Positions 44,936-56,120 of a stretch of 64,000 nucleotides of DNA are shown here, one piece after another (position 1 is the stretch's first letter; each line of letters opens with the position of its first letter). A program made the translations under genes and the position numbers. Source of the stretch: a virus; IMG/VR virus record IMGVR_UViG_3300042894_004439, positions 19,175 through 83,174 of that record, one strand, 5' to 3'. The notes below the pieces were generated by a model. The model saw only the letters and a list, made by a program, of their open reading frames with translations. It was not told the DNA's origin and ran no database searches.

Positions 44936-45586
44936 ATGTTAACTTCGATCAAAGAAATTTCAAATCACCCGATTGTAATATTATTGTACCAAGCTGGATC
45001 TAGCGGCGAATTCTTATCGTATGCGTTGACCCAAAGCATTAGTCAATTTACAAAAATGAAAACGCTTTGGGAAAATAATAATCGATGTGTAGTTCAAGAT
45101 TATTTTGGAAGAACCCTATTATTTGGACCAATCACTGAAGATATTTTATTGCCTAGGATTAATTTGTTTTTTGAAATGGCCAAATCAAAAGGTGTAAGGC
45201 ACATGGGATTATCGCATCACAATCCGCATCAAATTGATTTTATTAAAAATTACGGTGCAACATGGCCTGTAATTGAAATTACAACCTTACAACCTGTAAG
45301 CATTAAGTTTCGAAAATTAGCTGGTGCTAGCAAAATACCCAAAAAGTACCAGTTAAGCCCTTTCAACGAAAATGAAGAAGTCACCACTGCGTTGGATATA
45401 GGATTCATCCCAGATCATCATTTGCAGATAGAATGGAGTGAATTATTTTTAACCGATATTCGCACAACATATTTTAAAATATTAAAATTTCTTGATTGCG
45501 CCGGTGATGTGGATTATTTTGTTGATATAGTTAATGATTATGTCAACAACAATCAAAACTTAATACAGTCTGTTTATGAAAATTAA
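44936..45586 (+). CDS. P-loop sulfotransferase-like protein
   Basis: 216 residues. N-terminal PIVILLYQAGSSGEFLSYAL resembles the phosphosulfate-binding loop of sulfotransferases, with SSGEF instead of GGNH. Later GFIPDHHLQIEWSELFLTD then a helical YFKILKFLDCAG resembles the C-terminal part of this group. Overlaps the next SGNH-like gene by 11 bases. Substrate unknown. Confidence 0.52.
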   Translation: MLTSIKEISNHPIVILLYQAGSSGEFLSYALTQSISQFTKMKTLWENNNRCVVQDYFGRTLLFGPITEDILLPRINLFFEMAKSKGVRHMGLSHHNPHQIDFIKNYGATWPVIEITTLQPVSIKFRKLAGASKIPKKYQLSPFNENEEVTTALDIGFIPDHHLQIEWSELFLTDIRTTYFKILKFLDCAGDVDYFVDIVNDYVNNNQNLIQSVYEN

Positions 45587-46286
45587 ACATTTACGCACCA
45601 TTGGAGATGGATTTTGTTTTAATCATTACTGGCCAATGTGGAGCCAGTTATTGGCAGAAATTTTAGACTGTGAATGGCAAAATTTTTCATTGCCTGGACT
45701 TGGCAATGAAGCTATAGCCAACATTGTGCTTGATCAGGTGTCAGCCGAAGATTTACCAAACACCTTATGGGTGATTCAGTGGGCCGAACCTAAAAGACTA
45801 GATTTTAGAGTAGATACTATTAACCCTGCATTTTTAAAAGAAACAGAGTCAGACCCAATTTACTATAAAAACTTTATCACCACAGCGCAAGGAAGGAAAT
45901 ACTGGTCTAGTAGTGCTAGTATTTTGCCTTGGGTAGCCGAACAACGAAATTTAATAACATTAGAACAATACCAAGATCGACAAAAATTATTTGAATTAGC
46001 AGTTACACATGCATTGGAAAAAGCTGGCGTAAAATGGCAATATATCTCTACCCCGGCCATGATGAGTTTTTTAAAACAAAGCAAGTATTTTGATCTTGAT
46101 GTAGGAGAAATACAACCAGTGAGTTCCGTACATTTGGACTTTTTAGAACAGTTTGTACTACCGAGATTAGACATTGATACCTCCAGATTGGATAATATTC
46201 GTGAAAAAACACTTCTCGTCGATCAAGAACGCAAACATAGCAATCAATTTGTGCCTTGGGACAGAAATATGCATAAACGAGTTTGA
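45576..46286 (+). CDS. SGNH-hydrolase-like protein
   Basis: 236 residues. Block I is degenerate (RTIGDGFCFNH: GDG instead of GDS), but the next block SLPGLGNEAIANIVLDQ and WVIQWAEPKR follow the plan of the other SGNH-like proteins here. The C-terminal block is PVSSVHLDFLEQFVLPR. Missing the usual Ser suggests altered chemistry or a non-catalytic role. Coupled to the sulfotransferase-like gene. Confidence 0.55.
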   Translation: MKIKHLRTIGDGFCFNHYWPMWSQLLAEILDCEWQNFSLPGLGNEAIANIVLDQVSAEDLPNTLWVIQWAEPKRLDFRVDTINPAFLKETESDPIYYKNFITTAQGRKYWSSSASILPWVAEQRNLITLEQYQDRQKLFELAVTHALEKAGVKWQYISTPAMMSFLKQSKYFDLDVGEIQPVSSVHLDFLEQFVLPRLDIDTSRLDNIREKTLLVDQERKHSNQFVPWDRNMHKRV

Positions 46287-47455: not shown

Positions 47456-48184
47456 ATGATACTTAAAAGTTTTGGATGTAGTTTTATTTTTGGTAGCGAG
47501 TTGGCAGAAGACAGAATGCACACGCGGATGTATCCTTCGCCAGACGAGAAAAACAGGCAACATGTTACTGGGAGTCGGTTAACATGGCCAGCATTACTTG
47601 CAAAACATTACAATTATCAATATCAAACATATGCGAAACCAGGGTCTGGCAATCTACAAATTTTAGAACGCATGATGAGTCATTTTGCTGACCCAGTGAA
47701 TGACGATACAATTTGTGTTGTTGGTTGGTCTTGGATAGATCGATTTGACTATTGTGTAAAAAATTCTACATGGCCAGGAGCACCATGGGCCACTATAATG
47801 CCAAATGACGAGAACGAAACTGCTAAAATTTATTATAGAGATTTACACTCTGAATTACAGGATAAGTTGGTTAATTTATTGTATATACGTCAAGCAATTG
47901 ATTTTCTCAAAGAAAAACAAATTCCATTTTTAATGACCTACATGGATCATCTGTTATTCGATACTCGATGGAATACCACGCCAGCAGTGACAGAACTGCA
48001 AACATATATAAAACCATATATGACAACATTTGAAGGATTAAATTTCCAAGAATGGACCAAAAAAAATAATTTTCCTATAGGTAAAAATGGTCATCCATTG
48101 GAATCGGCTCATCAAGCTGCTAGTGAGTACATAATCAAACTTTTTGGTACGAAAAGTATAGGCGTTCATTGCCATCCTTCTTGA
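47456..48184 (+). CDS. SGNH-family hydrolase-like protein
   Basis: 242 residues. Block I is variant (SFGCSFIFGSE: GCS for GDS), block II YAKPGSGNLQILERM, then CVVGWSWIDRFDY, and block V GHPLESAHQAASEYI. It resembles the protein at 29882 throughout. TATAAT lies five bases before the ATG. The 3' end overlaps the methyltransferase on the opposite strand by 50 bases. Confidence 0.7.
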   Translation: MILKSFGCSFIFGSELAEDRMHTRMYPSPDEKNRQHVTGSRLTWPALLAKHYNYQYQTYAKPGSGNLQILERMMSHFADPVNDDTICVVGWSWIDRFDYCVKNSTWPGAPWATIMPNDENETAKIYYRDLHSELQDKLVNLLYIRQAIDFLKEKQIPFLMTYMDHLLFDTRWNTTPAVTELQTYIKPYMTTFEGLNFQEWTKKNNFPIGKNGHPLESAHQAASEYIIKLFGTKSIGVHCHPS

Positions 48185-48860
48185 ATTCTAATAATTTAAG
48201 ATTGTATTTTTCAGCAAATTCATTTACTATTTCAAACGTCCAAGGGAATATATCCACATAAGGACCTGTCTTGTGTGTGATTCCTGGATTGGCACGTAAA
48301 TAAAATTTACCTCCAGTTATCAATAAATCCACGCAGTGGGAAAACCTTGCTTCAATTTCGTCTTGGCTGTTAAAGTTAATTGATCCCAGTGCAAGTATGT
48401 GATCGTGTTTGTGCTTAACTTTATAGTCTAATATGTCAACTTCAAAGTCTGCACAGTTATTATAAGGATCGATTCCTACTAGGTTCTGTATGCGTCCTTT
48501 GAATGGATGATATCCACACCCTACATCTAAAACCGCCTGGGGATTTTGTTTATTAATTTCTTCAGCCAGTGCCCATCCGGTGTAGTCATAATCGCCAGTG
48601 CGCGGTTTCCAAATTTCAGCAAAAAACCTGTGCGTGTAACGCTCGCTTAGATCATCCACAATAGTTTTTAATGTACCTATATAATCACACGGTAAACTGA
48701 GTTGGGCATCTACTGCGTCTTTAAACTTGCCATAGCGAGCAGGAGTCCACGGCAACTGATCCACGTGTGTGTCTTTGTCTATGACAATATTCTGGTATTT
48801 TGGTAAATTAAAAGCTGTGTGCAAATTTTCTTTAATCAAGTTAAAAATTTTAGTATTCAT
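48135..48860 (-). CDS. Class I SAM-dependent methyltransferase
   Basis: 241 residues. SAM motif I AVLDVGCGYHPF (about residue 110), an acidic strand-2 end (VGIDPY), then ILALGSINF and a late LLITGGKFYLRANPG strand. Typical small-molecule or sugar methyltransferase. Alone on the minus strand between plus-strand SGNH and accessory operons. Substrate unknown. Confidence 0.82.
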   Translation of the reverse strand: MNTKIFNLIKENLHTAFNLPKYQNIVIDKDTHVDQLPWTPARYGKFKDAVDAQLSLPCDYIGTLKTIVDDLSERYTHRFFAEIWKPRTGDYDYTGWALAEEINKQNPQAVLDVGCGYHPFKGRIQNLVGIDPYNNCADFEVDILDYKVKHKHDHILALGSINFNSQDEIEARFSHCVDLLITGGKFYLRANPGITHKTGPYVDIFPWTFEIVNEFAEKYNLKLLEFKKDGNERLYFSYQKV

Positions 48861-48999: not shown

Positions 49000-49617
49000 A
49001 TGAAACACATTAAACAATATAAAACATTAGGAATATTATTTGCTCCTGCACTTGGTGGAAACCATATTGCTAACATGATTTCAACTTCTCCTCACGTGGA
49101 AAATAGAATTAAAACTGCCCAGTACGAGCAAAATCTAATAGATTTATATAGTAATTCAAAAGGATACATGTTTCATGCTGAGGAATTTTTAAATTTTAGT
49201 TCAGAGGATTATACTAAATCGTATAATTTGGTTTTAGAAAATAAATTGTCTACTGTTTTGCCAGGCCATATGGAAGATGCATATTGGGTTTTGAATAAAT
49301 TAAAACCACTGGGCAAAATGGGGTTTATTACTATGGAAGTATTCAATATAGATATTTTTAATTTTTATAAAAATATTAATACTAGATCCTACGTAGAAAA
49401 TTATAATCCCTATATATATCGATTTATGTACACTAAAGATGTTGCATCACGATTATTAGATATACCAATGGACGATGGGTATGTTATTGACGCTGAAAAA
49501 ATAATCCAGCCGGACATCACTGAATTATTAAACAATTTAAATGATGAGTTACAGTTGGATATGAATCTTACACTGTGCAAAGAGTTGCACAGCATGAGAT
49601 ATAAAAAAATACATTAA
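49000..49617 (+). CDS. P-loop sulfotransferase-like protein
   Basis: 205 residues. LGILFAPALGGNHIANMIST is the glycine-rich loop; VLPGHMEDAYWVLNKL and a C-terminal LCKELHSMRYKKI match the paralogue at 26560 in order and spacing. Very A+T-rich. First full gene of the accessory cluster running to 53306. Sulfo transfer is possible but unproven. Confidence 0.55.
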   Translation: MKHIKQYKTLGILFAPALGGNHIANMISTSPHVENRIKTAQYEQNLIDLYSNSKGYMFHAEEFLNFSSEDYTKSYNLVLENKLSTVLPGHMEDAYWVLNKLKPLGKMGFITMEVFNIDIFNFYKNINTRSYVENYNPYIYRFMYTKDVASRLLDIPMDDGYVIDAEKIIQPDITELLNNLNDELQLDMNLTLCKELHSMRYKKIH

Positions 49618-49629
49618 AAGGAAAAACAA

Positions 49630-50607
49630 ATGAAAAAAATACTAGCACTGATACTTGCTACCGCAAGCATGTTAGCACAGGCATGGGAACCAACCAAGCC
49701 AGTACAAGTCTATATCGGTAACACGCCTGGAGCCGGGAACGAAATGGCCTTTAGAAAACTAGCACAGATTGTACAAAAAGAAAATCCTAAATTTGTCTAT
49801 GTTGTACAAAACATTCCCGGAGCAGACTCAGTCATAGCCAACAACCGGTTTTTAGAAGCCACAAACGATGGGCATACCATTAACTTGCCAAGTCACATGA
49901 GCAGTTATGTTACAAATGATATCTGGGAAAAGTCAATTAAGAAATACAACTACGACAGTTTCGTAGATGTGTTGACCATGGGTAAATCACCATTGGTGTT
50001 GGTTGCTAATCCCAAGAGCGGCATTAATACTCCACAGGAGTTTGTGAAGTATATTCAATCTGGTAGAACTATTAGCATTGCTGTAGGCGGTGGAGCACAT
50101 AGAACAGCATTTGAATATTTGATGGACAAAGGTCGAGGCAACAAAGACACAGTCAAACCCATCAAGTTTAACGGACCAATGCCTGCTGTGACCAGCGTGG
50201 CATCATTTGATCCTAAGACAGGAGGAACAGAATTTGGCATCATTCCCATTGCTGTGGCCAAGGCCTTGGTGGATGCAGGCAAAGTCAAACCCATTGGATT
50301 CACTGGTACACGTAAGATGGCACAATTTCCAGAAGTTCCGTTGTTGAACACCATTGCACCTGGGATCAATGTGTATGCGGCTTGGTCAATTCAATTGCCT
50401 CCTGGCACAGACAAGGACATTGTGGCCTGGTATCAACTGCAATTCAGTCGTGCAGTTCGTAGCGCAGAATACAAAGAGTACATGGATGCCAACGTTATAT
50501 TCTACGCAGAAGATGAACTTACTCCTGCAGGATTAAAGCGCAACATGGACGAACTACGTGCTACCTTTTTACCAGTACTGAGTCGAATTGATTTAAGTAA
50601 AGAATGA
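49630..50607 (+). CDS. Bug/TctC-family periplasmic binding protein
   Basis: 325 residues. Signal peptide (about residues 1-18, ending MLAQAWE), then the family core: VQVYIGNTPGAGNEMAFRKL, VVQNIPGADSVIANNR, a later GINTPQEFVKYI and the C-terminal TFLPVLSRIDLS. The family binds carboxylates in the periplasm for tripartite tricarboxylate-type uptake and is greatly expanded in Burkholderiales. It has an AAAAGGAAAA ribosome binding site. The membrane subunits TctA/TctB are not in the window, so it must use host partners or act as a binding protein. Confidence 0.88.
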   Translation: MKKILALILATASMLAQAWEPTKPVQVYIGNTPGAGNEMAFRKLAQIVQKENPKFVYVVQNIPGADSVIANNRFLEATNDGHTINLPSHMSSYVTNDIWEKSIKKYNYDSFVDVLTMGKSPLVLVANPKSGINTPQEFVKYIQSGRTISIAVGGGAHRTAFEYLMDKGRGNKDTVKPIKFNGPMPAVTSVASFDPKTGGTEFGIIPIAVAKALVDAGKVKPIGFTGTRKMAQFPEVPLLNTIAPGINVYAAWSIQLPPGTDKDIVAWYQLQFSRAVRSAEYKEYMDANVIFYAEDELTPAGLKRNMDELRATFLPVLSRIDLSKE

Positions 50608-51233
50608 AATATATCTTTGTAGCCGGTGCTCCGGGCTCTAAATGGAGCAGTGTGGTCAAAAACATCTACTATAGTCCTAGCATTGATCGTTCGGACTATA
50701 GAGATGAATGGACCTATTATCATGACGCTTCGGGCACCCGGGAACTAATGCATCTGGGTGCTTACTTTGACCCAGGTATGATTTCTCCCTTGCCCGAAGA
50801 TTTAACAACATTAGATAGAGAACAATTGGAAGAGATATTTGCCGAGCCGTTTCAATTTAAAGAATCCAAGGGTACGCGAATTATCAAAAGCCATGTGTTT
50901 TCAAATCATATTGATTATCTGAGAAAATTGTTCCCCGAAGTGCCCATTGTGATTGTGCATCGCAATGACGATTCGTGCCTGGGCTGGTGGGTAAAATGCG
51001 GGCATTTTGATATCACATATCCTGACTATCATGAGTATTTCAAAGATCTCAAACACATGGCCCAAATCATTCGAAGACAAAATGCTGATATTTTGGCGGC
51101 TTGGTGGAAATACAATGATAAACCTGTAATGGACAATAATCTCCGATTGGCAGCGGCCCTGGGCATAGAACCACCTCCTGCAGAATACACACAAGAATAC
51201 GTAGTAAGCGATATAAGGGTAAAAGTAATATGA
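50604..51233 (+). CDS. Sulfotransferase-like P-loop protein
   Basis: 209 residues. FVAGAPGSKWSSVVKNIYY is the phosphosulfate-binding-loop region; the strand VPIVIVHRNDDSCLGWWVK is placed like the 3'-phosphate site of sulfotransferases (R-x7-S variant). Later helices (MAQIIRRQNADILAAWWKY) complete the fold. It overlaps the Bug-type gene and the oxygenase by four bases each, so all three are coupled. Confidence 0.62.
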   Translation: MKYIFVAGAPGSKWSSVVKNIYYSPSIDRSDYRDEWTYYHDASGTRELMHLGAYFDPGMISPLPEDLTTLDREQLEEIFAEPFQFKESKGTRIIKSHVFSNHIDYLRKLFPEVPIVIVHRNDDSCLGWWVKCGHFDITYPDYHEYFKDLKHMAQIIRRQNADILAAWWKYNDKPVMDNNLRLAAALGIEPPPAEYTQEYVVSDIRVKVI

Positions 51234-51889
51234 TAACAGACGAATTTAAAAGCAGTTGGGATTTTACAAAGAGTTACAGTACATATCATTTTGACAGCGT
51301 CAAAATAGATCGATTTGAAGATGTGATTGCACATCTAGGACATATTGAACCCACATGGCAAGCTGATCTTGAAGACATTGTTGCTAACTCAAACCCAGCC
51401 ACTTGGGAAACTCGCGGTTACAAAGGTGAAGGTATTCCTCCTCCGCGTGAAGATTTGTTGGCAGAAGAATATGATATTGAACGGGTAGGCGCTGATCCCA
51501 AAATGATCATCACCCATATCAATTGGCGTATTCCCGATTCGTTGCAAGCAATTACTGCGGCATTTGGCCTAGATGATTGCATGGAACGCATACACGTACA
51601 GCAACCTGGAGAAGTGTGGAACCTACACATAGATAAACTGCAGAAATGGTGCCCTGAAGATCCGTCAAAGATAGGACGTTATTTTGTACAATTAACAGAC
51701 TGGCAACCTGGGCAGTTCTGGGAGTATGGTAATTATCACTGGAACCAATGGCGTGCCGGCGATGTCAGCACATTTGACTGGGCCAACATGCCACACTCTA
51801 CAGCCAATGCTGGCCATTATCCCAGAGTTACATTCCAGTTAACTGGTGTTATTACAGAAAAGACTAAAGCATTTTTAGCCACACTATGA
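51230..51889 (+). CDS. 2OG-Fe(II) oxygenase-like protein
   Basis: 219 residues. Double-stranded beta-helix with iron ligands H133 and D135 (WNLHIDK) and H189 (MPHSTAN), plus a 2-oxoglutarate-type Arg at about 199 (PRVTFQL). The segment QFWEYGNYHWNQW lies between. The family hydroxylates side chains or small molecules. It sits between two sulfotransferase-like genes with four-base overlaps, suggesting that it acts on the same product. Confidence 0.72.
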   Translation: MITDEFKSSWDFTKSYSTYHFDSVKIDRFEDVIAHLGHIEPTWQADLEDIVANSNPATWETRGYKGEGIPPPREDLLAEEYDIERVGADPKMIITHINWRIPDSLQAITAAFGLDDCMERIHVQQPGEVWNLHIDKLQKWCPEDPSKIGRYFVQLTDWQPGQFWEYGNYHWNQWRAGDVSTFDWANMPHSTANAGHYPRVTFQLTGVITEKTKAFLATL

Positions 51890-52512
51890 AAACTCTATTA
51901 ATCATTACTGGTCCGCAAGGGTCTGGTAATCATTTATGGTCAAAAATCTTTGCGCTACACCCAGATGTGTATGGCTGGCACACCCTGTTACATGAATACT
52001 GGATAGGGCATGATCAAGAACCTTTTGCAGATTGTTGGGCTGATCCCGACGAGTTAAAAGAATTTGACTGGGGTGAATGCAAGTACTTTGTCACAAGTGT
52101 AAGTACTCCGTACATGCTCAACGGTGAACGTACCATACCCAACATTGTGCGTTTTGCTGCCACAGCCCTGGGACTGGGCATACGGGTAAAAATTGCCATC
52201 ATTGGACGTGATCGTAATATATTACAGTATCAAGAGACTCGTGTACGTGGAGAACCCACATTCGATATAGCACTAGCAGAATATGAAAAATTAACAACAT
52301 GGAATCCTGTATTCTTAAGTTATGAATTGTTGCATCTTTATGGTGATCTTTATCTACAACAGCTATCTGATCAATTGGAGTTCCCTATTGATTATTCTAG
52401 TCCCCAACTGGAAAATATTTTACAGGATGATACAAACAGTAAGTACTTTCAACCAGTGACACATCATCCTACAGATGATTTAGCACGACATACTTCAAGG
52501 AAATGGCGATGA
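51886..52512 (+). CDS. P-loop sulfotransferase-like protein
   Basis: 208 residues. LLIITGPQGSGNHLWSKIFAL is the P-loop-like start; a strand with VKIAIIGRDRNILQYQETRV follows, placed like the 3'-phosphate-binding Arg region. The fold fits the sulfotransferase/kinase-like P-loop group. It overlaps the following kinase-nucleotidyltransferase by 10 bases. Confidence 0.6.
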   Translation: MKTLLIITGPQGSGNHLWSKIFALHPDVYGWHTLLHEYWIGHDQEPFADCWADPDELKEFDWGECKYFVTSVSTPYMLNGERTIPNIVRFAATALGLGIRVKIAIIGRDRNILQYQETRVRGEPTFDIALAEYEKLTTWNPVFLSYELLHLYGDLYLQQLSDQLEFPIDYSSPQLENILQDDTNSKYFQPVTHHPTDDLARHTSRKWR

Positions 52513-53306
52513 CAGCACAACGTATATTAATCATGGGCTTGCCCGGCGCAGGCAAAACATATCTAGCACAGCACATATTAGACCACTTGCAGGCAGAACG
52601 CAAACGTGTGCATTGGCTCAATGCCGACGATGTGCGTAAAGAATACAACGACTGGGACTTTACTGAAGCAGGCCGTATTCGACAGAGTGTGCGTATGCGT
52701 ACACTAGCAGATTCATTCACTGACGTAGACTACGTAATCTGTGACTTTGTTGCACCACTGGTAGAAATGCGCAACAACTTCAAAGCAGACTGGTGTGTGT
52801 GGGTTGACACCATTGACAAAGGTCGTTTTGAAGATACCAACCGAGCGTTTATTCCTCCAGAAGTTTATGACTTCCGTATTACAGAACAAAAGTCAGAGAA
52901 ATGGGGTGAATTCATCGCCGCACACATATTAGATAATAGACGCCGTCCTGTGTTTGATTGGCAACGAGAAACTGTACAGATGCTGGGCCGTTGGCAACCG
53001 TGGCATGCCGGTCATCGTGCGCTGTTTGAACGTGCTATCGCTAAAACTGGACAAGTGGTTATTCAAATACGTGACTGTCAGGGATGGCAAGGTAGTAACC
53101 CGTTTGAAATAGACAAAGTCAAATCATTTATCAAACGTGATTTGGACATGCTATATCAAGGTCAATATGAAATTCAAGTTGTGCCCAACATTGTTAATAT
53201 CACTTACGGTCGAGATGTGGGTTATAAGATTGAACAAGAATCATTTGACGAAAAAACTCATGCTATCAGCGCCACTGAAATTAGAAAACAAATGGGACTC
53301 AAATAA
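52503..53306 (+). CDS. CysC-like kinase fused to nucleotidyltransferase
   Basis: 267 residues, two domains. Residues 8-130: P-loop kinase with GLPGAGKT (12-19) and NADDVR (40-45), in the place of the DGDNVR element of adenylylsulfate (APS) kinase; the lid may be the R108...R114 region. Residues 155-267: nucleotidyltransferase with GRWQPWHAGH (HxGH at 168-171) and ISATEIR (255-261). APS kinase makes PAPS, the sulfotransferase donor, which fits its neighbours; however the second domain looks more like NMN or cytidylyl transferases than ATP sulfurylase. Last gene of the operon. Confidence 0.75.
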   Translation: MAMTAQRILIMGLPGAGKTYLAQHILDHLQAERKRVHWLNADDVRKEYNDWDFTEAGRIRQSVRMRTLADSFTDVDYVICDFVAPLVEMRNNFKADWCVWVDTIDKGRFEDTNRAFIPPEVYDFRITEQKSEKWGEFIAAHILDNRRRPVFDWQRETVQMLGRWQPWHAGHRALFERAIAKTGQVVIQIRDCQGWQGSNPFEIDKVKSFIKRDLDMLYQGQYEIQVVPNIVNITYGRDVGYKIEQESFDEKTHAISATEIRKQMGLK

Positions 53307-53321
53307 AGAAACTTTTAATTA

Positions 53322-53351
53322 TTGTTTTTTACTTTCAGAAAATAATATAAT
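53322..53351 (+). promoter_or_regulatory. Sigma-70 promoter
   Basis: TTGTTT (53322-53327), 18-base spacer, TATAAT (53346-53351). The ATG follows after six bases. Confidence 0.55.
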
Positions 53352-53357
53352 CATCTA

Positions 53358-54260
53358 ATGACCGAATTAATAAAGCCTTGTGAGTCTATTCTTAACTCAA
53401 CAAGAATTATATTAAGAGCCAATGAAAACTGTTTGTTTTCTGGCATAGATTCTGCGGAAGCTAATTCTACATTGGCCTTTAAAGAAAAAAAACATTTTCG
53501 AAATTACCCACATCCAATAGAGTATCATTATAACAGCCGTGGATTTAGAGATCAGGAATGGCCAGACACTATGATAGAATTACAAAATTCAATTTGGTGC
53601 ATAGGTGATAGTTTTACTGCTGGAGTAGGTTTACCATTTACGCATACATGGCCACAGGTACTACAACAAACAACAGATCAACGAACTATTAATGTAAGTT
53701 TAGATGGCGCTAGTAATAACTGGATTGCAAGACACACTTGTGCAATTATCAATGAAATTGCTCCTCGGAATTTAATAGTGCAGTGGAGTTATTCGCACCG
53801 CCGAGAAGCTGATATCAAAGTGGCATTAGATCCAATATGGAGAGAATTTTATAATGCTATAAAAGGCACTGATTGGCCACCTTGTGAATCATTTGATTTG
53901 TTTAATACATTGCCCATTAATATACAAATTGATCTACGCAATGATCCGCGGTTTAACTCGTGGCACAAGGAATTTGATCTAGAAACGCCGCGTAGAATAT
54001 ATGAAGTTGATTCAACTCCCGAAGAAAACATTGCAAATACACAAGCGGCAATTGATGCAATCTGTTCTACTTCCACAACCACCAATATTATACACACGTT
54101 TATACCAAATTGGCACAACACCAACAAGTATCAATTGAACTTTCACGGGTATCCTGTGATCGAAAATTTTCCTGTTTTAGACTTAGGACGCGACTATTTT
54201 CACTATGATATTACAACTGCTACTAATTTAGCAAATCAATTAGTAGGATTACTATTATAA
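53358..54260 (+). CDS. SGNH-family hydrolase
   Basis: 300 residues. An N-terminal NSRGFRDQEWP module precedes block I WCIGDSFTAGVGLPF, a plan common in bacterial surface-polysaccharide acyl esterases. Then SLDGASNNWIARH (block II/III) and WSYSHRREAD. The C-terminal block is less clear (DYFHYD). Possibly leaderless, as the -10 box lies six bases before the ATG. Convergent with the gene at 54263. Confidence 0.72.
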   Translation: MTELIKPCESILNSTRIILRANENCLFSGIDSAEANSTLAFKEKKHFRNYPHPIEYHYNSRGFRDQEWPDTMIELQNSIWCIGDSFTAGVGLPFTHTWPQVLQQTTDQRTINVSLDGASNNWIARHTCAIINEIAPRNLIVQWSYSHRREADIKVALDPIWREFYNAIKGTDWPPCESFDLFNTLPINIQIDLRNDPRFNSWHKEFDLETPRRIYEVDSTPEENIANTQAAIDAICSTSTTTNIIHTFIPNWHNTNKYQLNFHGYPVIENFPVLDLGRDYFHYDITTATNLANQLVGLLL

Positions 54261-54262
54261 TA

Positions 54263-55387
54263 CTAGTCATTGATCCAAACTAGGTCACTCAGTGCCAACT
54301 GTTTTTTTGGAATATCATTATAGGTTATTAACGATTTATTTGCAGACTCAGCAGACGTCCAGTTAGTGTGTTCTAATTGTGCAGCCTGTGTCAATGTTTC
54401 TGGATGATATGATATTGCATATGACGGTTGATTGATGCCAACCCATTTGTTATAATTCAACAAACATTGATCTATATTAGTAATGAGGTCAGCTTTTTCT
54501 TTAAGCGTATGTAATTTTATTGGAATTCCAGACATTACAATACCATCATCTTGCAGATCTTGAATGAATATTCTGCACTGGGTATAATCATCTATGTTTA
54601 ATTTGATAAATGATTTTTCTTCATCACTGAATTCATGATTAAATGGTATTAAACTTAACAAATAATGTACACGATTCCAATCATGCCAATTAATGTTAAA
54701 TCTATCTTGCCATGTTAATAAATTTTTTTTATCTTTAAATACATTTAAATTCAAAATAAATTTTTCAATTTCAGGCAAATCTCTTTCATATTCAAAATAA
54801 CTATTCACATTAAAGTGACGATCAACCCAGTCAAGATATTCGTGATAGTGTAGTAAATATTTTTCCATAACATCGTTTTGAACATGTATTTTGTTTTCAT
54901 GAATATTTTTAAATATTTCATATTTTTGTTCAACTGAGTATACATTTAGATTTTTTGACTCTCCAGCAATGGCCCAACTCATTGCATGCTCAAACAAATT
55001 TTTTCTACGACAAGATATAATGTGAAAATTATCATTTAAATATTGATAAAATGCCAATTGGTCATTTAATGAATCATTTCGGTTTTTAATATGATAGTGT
55101 GCCAATCTTGCAGTGACGTCATGTTTACAATTTTCTAATAGATTAACAATAGTTTCTAAGCTTTGAAAGTATCCCCATCCTGCTTGCGGCCGGGCTTCCA
55201 TGGACTGTTTTTTGCCTAGCACAGTTTGATTAAATTTTGTATTATGATACGGTATTAGCCCGTTGGTTAACTCATGCAAATTAATAGTCAACGGATTGTA
55301 GTTTTCGTTGATATTTGCATAAACTGTAACTAGTCGTTGTAACAGCGTGCTGCCCACTCGATCCGGAGTTAAAATTAAAACATTCAT
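54263..55387 (-). CDS. Sulfotransferase-like protein
   Basis: 374 residues from the ATG at 55387; longer readings would enter the divergent promoter region. VLILTPDRVGSTLLQRLVTV is the phosphosulfate-loop region (TPxRVGSTLLQR type, known from phage sulfotransferases). A later FHIISCRRKNLFEHAMSWAI corresponds to the 3'-phosphate site R-x7-S. This is the best match to true sulfotransferases among the seven such proteins in the window. A+T-rich. Confidence 0.7.
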   Translation of the reverse strand: MNVLILTPDRVGSTLLQRLVTVYANINENYNPLTINLHELTNGLIPYHNTKFNQTVLGKKQSMEARPQAGWGYFQSLETIVNLLENCKHDVTARLAHYHIKNRNDSLNDQLAFYQYLNDNFHIISCRRKNLFEHAMSWAIAGESKNLNVYSVEQKYEIFKNIHENKIHVQNDVMEKYLLHYHEYLDWVDRHFNVNSYFEYERDLPEIEKFILNLNVFKDKKNLLTWQDRFNINWHDWNRVHYLLSLIPFNHEFSDEEKSFIKLNIDDYTQCRIFIQDLQDDGIVMSGIPIKLHTLKEKADLITNIDQCLLNYNKWVGINQPSYAISYHPETLTQAAQLEHTNWTSAESANKSLITYNDIPKKQLALSDLVWIND

Positions 55388-55496: not shown

Positions 55497-56120
55497 ATGA
55501 GCCAACTTACTTGGATGTTTAGTTTAATTCCAGACGGCATTTTTGTACTTTGTACCTATGCAATATTTGCACTGGGTTTGCTGTTGTACATTGCTTCAAA
55601 ACTGGTGCAATGGATTCCTATAATGATGCAATATCGCATACCTGCAGAACTTGTGGGTGTGTTGTGCTTGTGCGTTGGGGCTTATTTCTTTGGCTGGCGC
55701 GGCAATGAAGAGAAATGGCTAGATCGTATTAAAGAGCTTGAAGAAAAGGTTCAGATCGCCGAAGCTAAGAGCCGTGAAGTCAATACCGTAATTGAAACCA
55801 AATTTGTTACTAAGATCAAAGTTGTAAAGGAAACAGTATATGCAAACCGAGAAATCATTCGTGAAGTTGCTGGGGCTCAGCTTGATAGTCAGTGTACTTT
55901 GCCTCGGTCTACAGTCGTGCTCCACGACAGTGCCAGTCGTAATGAAGTGGCCCGAGGTCCCGACAGTGTTGATGGAACCCCCTCGGGAGTTGAAGCCCAT
56001 CGACTCCTTGAAGCCGTCATTGACAACTACGGAAGCTGCCACGAAAACATTGAAAAATTAAAAGCCTGGCAAGAATGGTATCGAACACAAAAACAAATAT
56101 TTGAAGGAGTGAGTAAATGA
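55497..56120 (+). CDS. i-spanin-like membrane protein (Rz-type)
   Basis: 207 residues. Two N-terminal hydrophobic helices (about 13-35 and 50-66), then a long charged coiled coil (ELEEKVQIAEAKSREVNTV...) and a C-terminal helical region with two Cys. It lies directly before the endolysin and contains a lipoprotein gene in another frame, the arrangement of Rz/Rz1 spanins that fuse inner and outer membranes. Two helices rather than one is unusual for an i-spanin. Overlaps the endolysin by four bases. Confidence 0.7.
   Translation: MSQLTWMFSLIPDGIFVLCTYAIFALGLLLYIASKLVQWIPIMMQYRIPAELVGVLCLCVGAYFFGWRGNEEKWLDRIKELEEKVQIAEAKSREVNTVIETKFVTKIKVVKETVYANREIIREVAGAQLDSQCTLPRSTVVLHDSASRNEVARGPDSVDGTPSGVEAHRLLEAVIDNYGSCHENIEKLKAWQEWYRTQKQIFEGVSK
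55840..56061 (+). CDS. Embedded o-spanin-like lipoprotein (Rz1-type)
   Basis: 73 residues entirely inside the i-spanin gene in the +1 frame. A basic start, hydrophobic helix (VKLLGLSLIVSVLCLGL) and lipobox-type LQSC (Cys about 27) are followed by a Pro-rich segment (VPVVMKWPEVPTVLMEPP), as in Rz1 lipoproteins. Position relative to the i-spanin and endolysin fits. A gene finder would normally discard it as an overlap. Confidence 0.7.
   Translation: MQTEKSFVKLLGLSLIVSVLCLGLQSCSTTVPVVMKWPEVPTVLMEPPRELKPIDSLKPSLTTTEAATKTLKN

Follow-up and report, generated by a model that had tools for sequence, protein, structure and literature searches.

Does a phage operon that joins a CysC-like kinase to sulfotransferase-like proteins, an oxygenase and a periplasmic binding protein encode a pathway that activates and transfers a chemical group, and could that group be sulfate? 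The question is raised by a locus of an uncultivated phage, lying in a window of 64,000 nucleotides (positions 19175-83174 of the 83,174-bp IMG/VR virus record IMGVR_UViG_3300042894_004439; coordinates below are those of the window unless a locus label precedes them). An original prediction for this DNA had proposed that the genes activate a group, transfer it to a hydroxylated target and edit acyl groups on it. Here we describe the locus as a conserved cassette, modular in composition, whose kinase-nucleotidyltransferase fusion, which we call K (52503-53306, plus strand), is an accessory member with its own links to sulfotransferases in other phages.

K fuses an APS-kinase-like domain to a shortened nucleotidyltransferase domain

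The K protein comprises an APS (adenosine 5'-phosphosulfate)-kinase-like domain (residues ~1-150) and a shortened HxGH nucleotidyltransferase domain (~158-267) resembling nicotinamide mononucleotide (NMN) adenylyltransferase (NMNAT). The first of these matched PF01583 at 42.1 bits (cut-off 21.1, E 1e-10), and a profile of K matched APS kinases at 5e-16. Its AlphaFold2 model (pLDDT 90.8) was searched with Foldseek, and the top 50 PDB matches were all APS kinases or synthases of PAPS (3'-phosphoadenosine 5'-phosphosulfate) (50/50). In structures of Mycobacterium tuberculosis CysC, APS is held by Asp480 (the proposed base), Arg483, Phe492 and Arg497 (PMC4373884); by HMMER alignment and motif spacing, these are equivalent to D42, R45, F53 and R58 of K, which are invariant in 42/42 diverse relatives. 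K/R114 and the invariant F116 are possible lid equivalents of Lys562 and Phe576, in a lid whose sequence has diverged. That the original prediction saw a CysC-like kinase here was correct: kinship of the domain with APS kinases is well supported, and its nucleotide-acceptor site is largely intact.

The second domain keeps the motifs GRxQPxHxGH and IxATxxR, with R163, Q165, H168, H171, S256 and R261 invariant across the 42 relatives. NMNAT was its only match, at 24.8 bits against the 181.2 of the curated family TIGR01527, and the ATP sulfurylase domain PF01747 was not matched anywhere in K. Between GRxQPxH and IxAT it is ~25 residues shorter than MJ0541 (90-96 versus ~117), in a segment where part of the NMN pocket would presumably lie.

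These features set K apart from the systems it most resembles. ATP sulfurylase belongs to the HxGH superfamily, and K is like PAPS synthase (metazoan PAPSS; bacterial Sat-CysC) in fusing an APS kinase to a nucleotidyltransferase of that superfamily and in keeping the APS-contact residues; it differs in that its second domain is ~110 residues long and NMNAT-like, without PF01747, and in its total length of 267 residues as against ~550-630. With CysC, including the phage 'cysC' genes (PMC10914622, PMC9529941), it shares the kinase fold and the Asp, Arg, Phe and Arg of the APS site, but it has the fused nucleotidyltransferase, reads LNADD instead of LDGD, scores only 29 bits against the NCBIfam apsK equivalog TIGR00455 (far under the cut-off of 138.7), and has neighbours that indicate transfer and not reduction. 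PHROG 10255 spans residues 6-265 of K (E 5.5e-49) and thus describes the same fused protein, for which it gives only 'kinase' as function and no cassette context.

The cassette consists of a recurrent core and accessory genes

We used the sulfotransferase-like protein ST50604 (50604-51233, plus strand) as a seed and found 264 related IMG/VR places, of which the best 80 were analysed. Together with the window and 14 loci seeded with ST51886 (51886-52512, plus strand), these gave a clustering set of 95 loci, with open reading frames (ORFs) called by a simple longest-ORF rule and gene clusters built by single linkage. Association counts were taken from the 56 loci with sufficient flank; as the lists hold the best 80, frequencies reflect near relatives, and as the loci are related by descent, p-values are indicative only.

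Across the 95 loci a core block of four genes recurs: the TctC/Bug-type periplasmic binding protein (TctC, 49630-50607, plus strand), ST50604, a putative Fe(II)/2-oxoglutarate-type oxygenase (OX, 51230-51889, plus strand) and, divergently on the opposite strand, an S-adenosylmethionine-methyltransferase-like gene that keeps a VLDVGCG motif (MT, 48135-48860). In the well-flanked loci, ST50604 was accompanied by MT in 55/56, by TctC in 54/56 and by OX in 55/56. This block occupies at least three recognisable, unrelated phage backgrounds: 30 of the 56 loci have surroundings of a PhoH/lysis type, 11 of a c16/c20 type, five of a c31 type and ten of other kinds. The genes along 49000-53306 are separated by a 12-bp gap and then overlap by 4, 4, 4 and 10 bp; the layout and the motifs quoted in the original prediction were all present. 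The 4-bp overlap of ST50604 and OX is preserved in 57 relatives, and TctC and ST50604 retain theirs in 36, so the overlaps and motifs exceed chance. The notion of a single functional module therefore survives as a conserved cassette, which is well supported, with two changes of membership: MT had been missed, and the P-loop-like ORF with an APALGGNH loop (49000-49617, plus strand), which recurs in 3/95 loci and matches nothing significantly in Pfam, PHROG or NCBIfam, lies outside the conserved cassette and is dropped from the claim.

K is an add-on to this core, present in 35 of the 56 loci. The other accessory genes are ST51886 (29 loci), a GDSL/SGNH-like hydrolase (SGNH53, 53358-54260, plus strand; 16), its convergent partner ST54263 (54263-55387, minus strand; 15), a glutamine-amidotransferase (GATase)-like gene (16) and DUF2061 (6). 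SGNH53 occurs in 16/35 loci with K and 0/21 without (Fisher p ~1e-4); ST54263, too, is missing wherever K is (0/21, Fisher p ~3e-4) and accompanies SGNH53 in 15/16 loci, and ST51886 is enriched alongside K (odds ratio 4.8). The start of ST54263, MNVLILTPD at 55387 as originally placed, is conserved, and its mechanical ORF extends to 55540.

Only three cassette proteins score above Pfam cut-offs, namely TctC (PF03401), ST50604 (PF13469, Sulfotransfer_3) and K (PF01583). TctC, at 69.7 bits (cut-off 27, E 3.7e-19) and with a signal-peptide-like N-terminus, bears out the Bug-type protein named earlier. Bug-type proteins are typical of betaproteobacteria. No TctA membrane partner was found in the 83-kb record, which may be incomplete. 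ST50604 (AGAPGSKWS loop) reaches 28.7 bits (cut-off 27), 19/34 of its relatives match PF13469 at E<=0.1, and K95, H97 and R120 are invariant in 34 relatives, with the Ser of the R...S motif lost; we take its K-x-H and 3'-phosphate Arg motifs to be those of cytosolic sulfotransferases. The three best Foldseek matches of its AlphaFold2 model (pLDDT 87.7) were all sulfotransferases but marginal in score (see below); we regard it as a predicted sulfotransferase on the Pfam score and the invariant K95-x-H97 and R120. Of the four sulfotransferase-like proteins originally counted, this one is supported by a family match, ST51886 (GPQGSGNH and GRDxNI) and ST54263 (TPDxVGSTLLQRL; R130...S139) are sulfotransferase-like by motif alignment, and the ORF at 49000 is without family support. 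OX shows the expected HxD...H...R pattern, with H133, D135, H189 and R199 invariant in 23 relatives, and matched no Pfam family; MT had no Pfam or NCBIfam match. The hydrolase once called a GDSF esterase had a weak Lipase_GDSL_2 match (E 0.0014) below the cut-off, consistent with an SGNH-like assignment. Sequence-profile searches of the PDB with the ST50604, OX, ST51886, MT and ST54263 families gave no match. A PADLOC defence-system search returned nothing beyond weak similarity of P-loops to AbiO and mad8, which was dismissed as generic.

Among 50,697 GenBank phage records, the core cassette proteins had no convincing match: OX, like the accessory ST51886, had zero, TctC had one at 21% identity in an unannotated record, and ST50604 had two partial matches of ~30%, both in marine virus fragments. 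A DNA megablast of 25 kb against GenBank phages likewise gave nothing. The four-gene core, whose products include an oxygenase and a binding protein that is exported, is unrepresented in the GenBank phages searched. ST50604 had no match in 369 class-level genomes, in a search that lacked a positive control and is uninformative.

Two further variants were seen among the cassette loci. Four loci (L331, L335, L338, L339) carry another version, with a second TctC gene 3' of K followed by PP-loop (ATP-pyrophosphatase-like) genes, and in six loci an amidinotransferase-like protein, so read from its sequence and without a family match, adjoins the cassette (e.g. L248:9473-10519).

K is linked to sulfotransferases outside the cassette

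Relatives of K were found in at least 599 IMG/VR stretches, the best 80 of which are 82-91% identical and lie on contigs of 4.6-525 kb. More distant relatives occur in Casjensviridae and phage DLP_6 (38-40% identity) and in SAR11, SAR86, SAR116, Bradyrhizobium and other genomes (~35-59%), with the two domains either fused or encoded by neighbouring genes. In a tree of K, genomic contexts were intermixed (29 label changes against a minimum of 7); the bootstrap of this tree is not settled, and a single origin of the cassette's K is possible.

We surveyed the neighbours of K on 50 K-bearing phage contigs (4.1 Mb). Sulfotransfer_3 gave 26 matches there, two of which were K's own P-loop; 20/24 lay within 5 kb of K after this correction (22/26 uncorrected), compared with 5.6 expected from random placement of 26. 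These sulfotransferases include types unlike those of the window (e.g. L073, PF13469 7e-16). K is thus linked to sulfotransferases in other phages, independently of this cassette, and the sulfotransferase-type partners originally proposed are found both here and elsewhere. A second linked family is DUF2061 (PF09834), predicted to be a small membrane protein. In 12/22 matches no more than 36 bp separate it from K, and it is near K in 26/66 loci with a deeply divergent K, the 25 listed cases lying 0-442 bp away. In one gammaproteobacterial genome, DUF2061 stands 4 bp after a gene that fuses ATP sulfurylase to APS kinase (L343:3-1725), and the family may act at the membrane as a partner in making PAPS. 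This was the only one of 15 bacterial loci with such a linkage, and we keep it as an anecdote, having dropped the idea of a general DUF2061-CysC linkage in bacteria. Other frequent neighbours of K are an epimerase, an RfaE-like nucleotidyltransferase, a PfkB-type kinase and RCC1-repeat proteins, that is, sugar-nucleotide genes and probably tail genes. In Stenotrophomonas phage Bhz60, a divergent K stands directly 3' of a NADAR-domain gene (L082:5562-6738).

In four SAR11 loci (L090, L093, L123, L124; e.g. L093:7998-8774), K belongs to the aprBA operon, with aprB-aprA a few genes downstream of it. Of 24 K-bearing bacterial genomes, several of them incomplete, 2 yielded an ATP sulfurylase. SAR11 cysC has been reported from exactly those strains that have aprA, with sat missing (PMC5069961); from its position and sequence, K is probably this orphan 'cysC'. 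In further SAR11 loci (L116, L122, L127, L136, L140 and similar; e.g. L136:7992-8773) the kinase and nucleotidyltransferase are two adjacent genes, in an operon that also holds a methyltransferase, an M24-peptidase-like protein, a dehydrogenase and a HalD-like oxygenase.

A candidate sulfation pathway and its alternatives

In the reading we favour, to which we give roughly even chances, the cassette transfers an activated group and K makes the PAPS-type donor for sulfotransferase-fold enzymes. The C-terminal HxGH domain would couple a nucleotide to a small anion, with sulfate the likeliest candidate (ATP to APS), or host APS would be used instead; the N-terminal domain would phosphorylate the ribose 3'-OH to yield the PAPS-type donor. 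This combination of nucleotidyltransferase and 3'-kinase shares its logic with PAPS synthase and the Campylobacter phosphoramidate donor pathway. ST50604, joined by ST51886 and ST54263 in K-bearing versions, would move the group onto an acceptor on which OX may install the hydroxyl, and MT and the SGNH hydrolase could tailor that acceptor further. The hydroxylated transfer target, the editing of acyl groups and the surface glycan of the original proposal are predictions, as is sulfate itself. The exported TctC hints that the cassette finds its substrate, or acts, at the cell envelope, and together with the neighbours of K in other phages it suggests an envelope target. The group activated is probably sulfate-like and the acceptor is a prediction. 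What favours sulfate is that sulfotransferases accompany K in several lineages and that K is linked to aprBA in SAR11. A bolder and rather unlikely version holds that K is a new, compact kind of PAPS synthase with a minimal NMNAT-like domain in place of ATP sulfurylase. Phages would use it in a mobile, modular sulfation cassette to remodel the cell they infect chemically, at an envelope glycan, a lipid or a protein, and in SAR11 it would be the so far missing enzyme that takes APS made by AprBA as its substrate.

Several observations weigh against the favoured reading. The first Asp of LDGD, Asp478 in CysC and associated with the Mg-water, is Asn in 40/42 relatives of K, and the nucleotidyltransferase domain resembles NMNAT (3e-10), not ATP sulfurylase. 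The fold match of ST50604 is weak (best Foldseek hit the sulfotransferase Cpz8, E 7.7e-3, TM ~0.4), and ST51886 and ST54263, without a family match, were called sulfotransferase-like from motifs alone. Since the core lacks K in 21/56 loci, it may use a host donor or serve another role. The contigs are related, so that our counts exceed the number of independent events. Finally, the split K of many SAR11 genomes sits in an operon of one-carbon-type genes, and the K of Casjensviridae adjoins a NADAR gene, not a sulfotransferase. Of the original view of K, the CysC-like kinase half is supported; the nucleotidyltransferase half is NMNAT-like, and the core can occur without K. The same prediction would have given up sulfation had every P-loop protein lacked a PAPS pocket and the kinase failed to bind APS; the evidence does not go that way, as K keeps the APS site and ST50604 keeps sulfotransferase motifs, albeit with its weak fold match.

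The main rival, which we consider unlikely, is a phosphoramidate-type or other non-sulfate donor, whereby the nucleotidyltransferase would form a nucleotide-linked group, the CysC-like domain would 3'-phosphorylate it, and transferases and a methyltransferase would deliver and cap it. Cytidine diphosphoramidate kinase is CysC-like. A work cited in PMC10919079 assigns such an enzyme to the O-methyl-phosphoramidate (MeOPN) capsule pathway of Campylobacter. The donor branch of that pathway (Cj1415-Cj1418) likewise combines nucleotidyltransferase, 3'-kinase and transferase. A methyltransferase does belong to the cassette core, and in 27/95 loci a GATase-like gene lies near TctC and ST50604 (e.g. 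L288:5429-6004), its best curated NCBIfam match being gamma-glutamyl-CDP-amidate hydrolase NF045546 (1.1e-19; next 5.7e-9). The score of 71 is, however, far under the NF045546 cut-off of 250, and the gene is absent from the window, shows no association with K (odds ratio 0.48, p 0.24, 56 loci) and did not turn up beside K elsewhere than in the cassette; the idea that GATase and K together mark phosphoramidate synthesis fails, as the two are unassociated. The pathways also differ in that the nucleotidyltransferase of K is of HxGH type and the transferases are of sulfotransferase type.

Freshwater phage cysC genes have been reported (62 cysC, PMC10914622; also PMC9529941) and interpreted as auxiliary genes of assimilatory sulfate reduction, and phage K would on that account raise host PAPS for cysteine synthesis. 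We hold this to be quite unlikely for K: the usual assimilatory interpretation fits poorly because neither PAPS reductase (CysH) nor ATP sulfurylase (Sat) exceeded the cut-off on any of the 50 K-bearing phage contigs (0/50), which are fragments. The neighbours of K are instead sulfotransferases, DUF2061, sugar-nucleotide and tail genes, and SAR11 has K yet lacks the pathway (PMC5069961). Less likely again is coincidence, that is, unrelated accessory genes gathered in a permissive region without forming a pathway. The region is indeed accessory and variable, with single-gene insertions between core genes, but core order and the 4-bp overlaps are conserved over several backgrounds, and SGNH53 and ST54263 depend on K. 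We rank lowest the possibility that K is an NAD-related enzyme, combining nicotinamide riboside kinase with NMN adenylyltransferase and perhaps restoring NAD against host defence. Such a role would agree with a nucleotidyltransferase domain nearest to NMNAT and with the NADAR-domain neighbour in phage Bhz60; it sits poorly with an APS-kinase-like domain that retains its APS-contact residues and with the shortening relative to MJ0541, and a NadV-like partner was not noticed.

Genes adjacent to the cassette

Just upstream of the cassette, our reading of the sequence gives two more SGNH-like genes and one P-loop-like gene (45576-46286, 47456-48184, 44936-45586). Beyond ST54263, an i-spanin-like gene (55497-56120) contains, in another frame, a small lipoprotein-like ORF (55840-56061; LSLIVSVLCLGLQSC); an endolysin-like gene comes next, at 56117. 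The nested genes are a probable embedded Rz/Rz1 pair.

Implications

Literature on phage APS kinase with sulfotransferase, on DUF2061 with APS kinase and on phage TctC auxiliary genes did not describe this gene set, in agreement with the earlier impression that no such system had been reported. The cassette is real, widespread and apparently undescribed; its kinase looks familiar, the domain fused to that kinase is unusual, and the biochemical function is a prediction. Phage 'cysC' genes in lakes are reportedly widespread, at times highly transcribed, and have been read as aiding cysteine synthesis (PMC10914622). If many of these are K, that reading is probably wrong, given that the partners of K are transferases and the enzyme is a fusion. 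The chemistry of K bears both on this phage question and on SAR11 sulfur metabolism, and the core cassette raises a testable question of what phages modify in their freshwater hosts.

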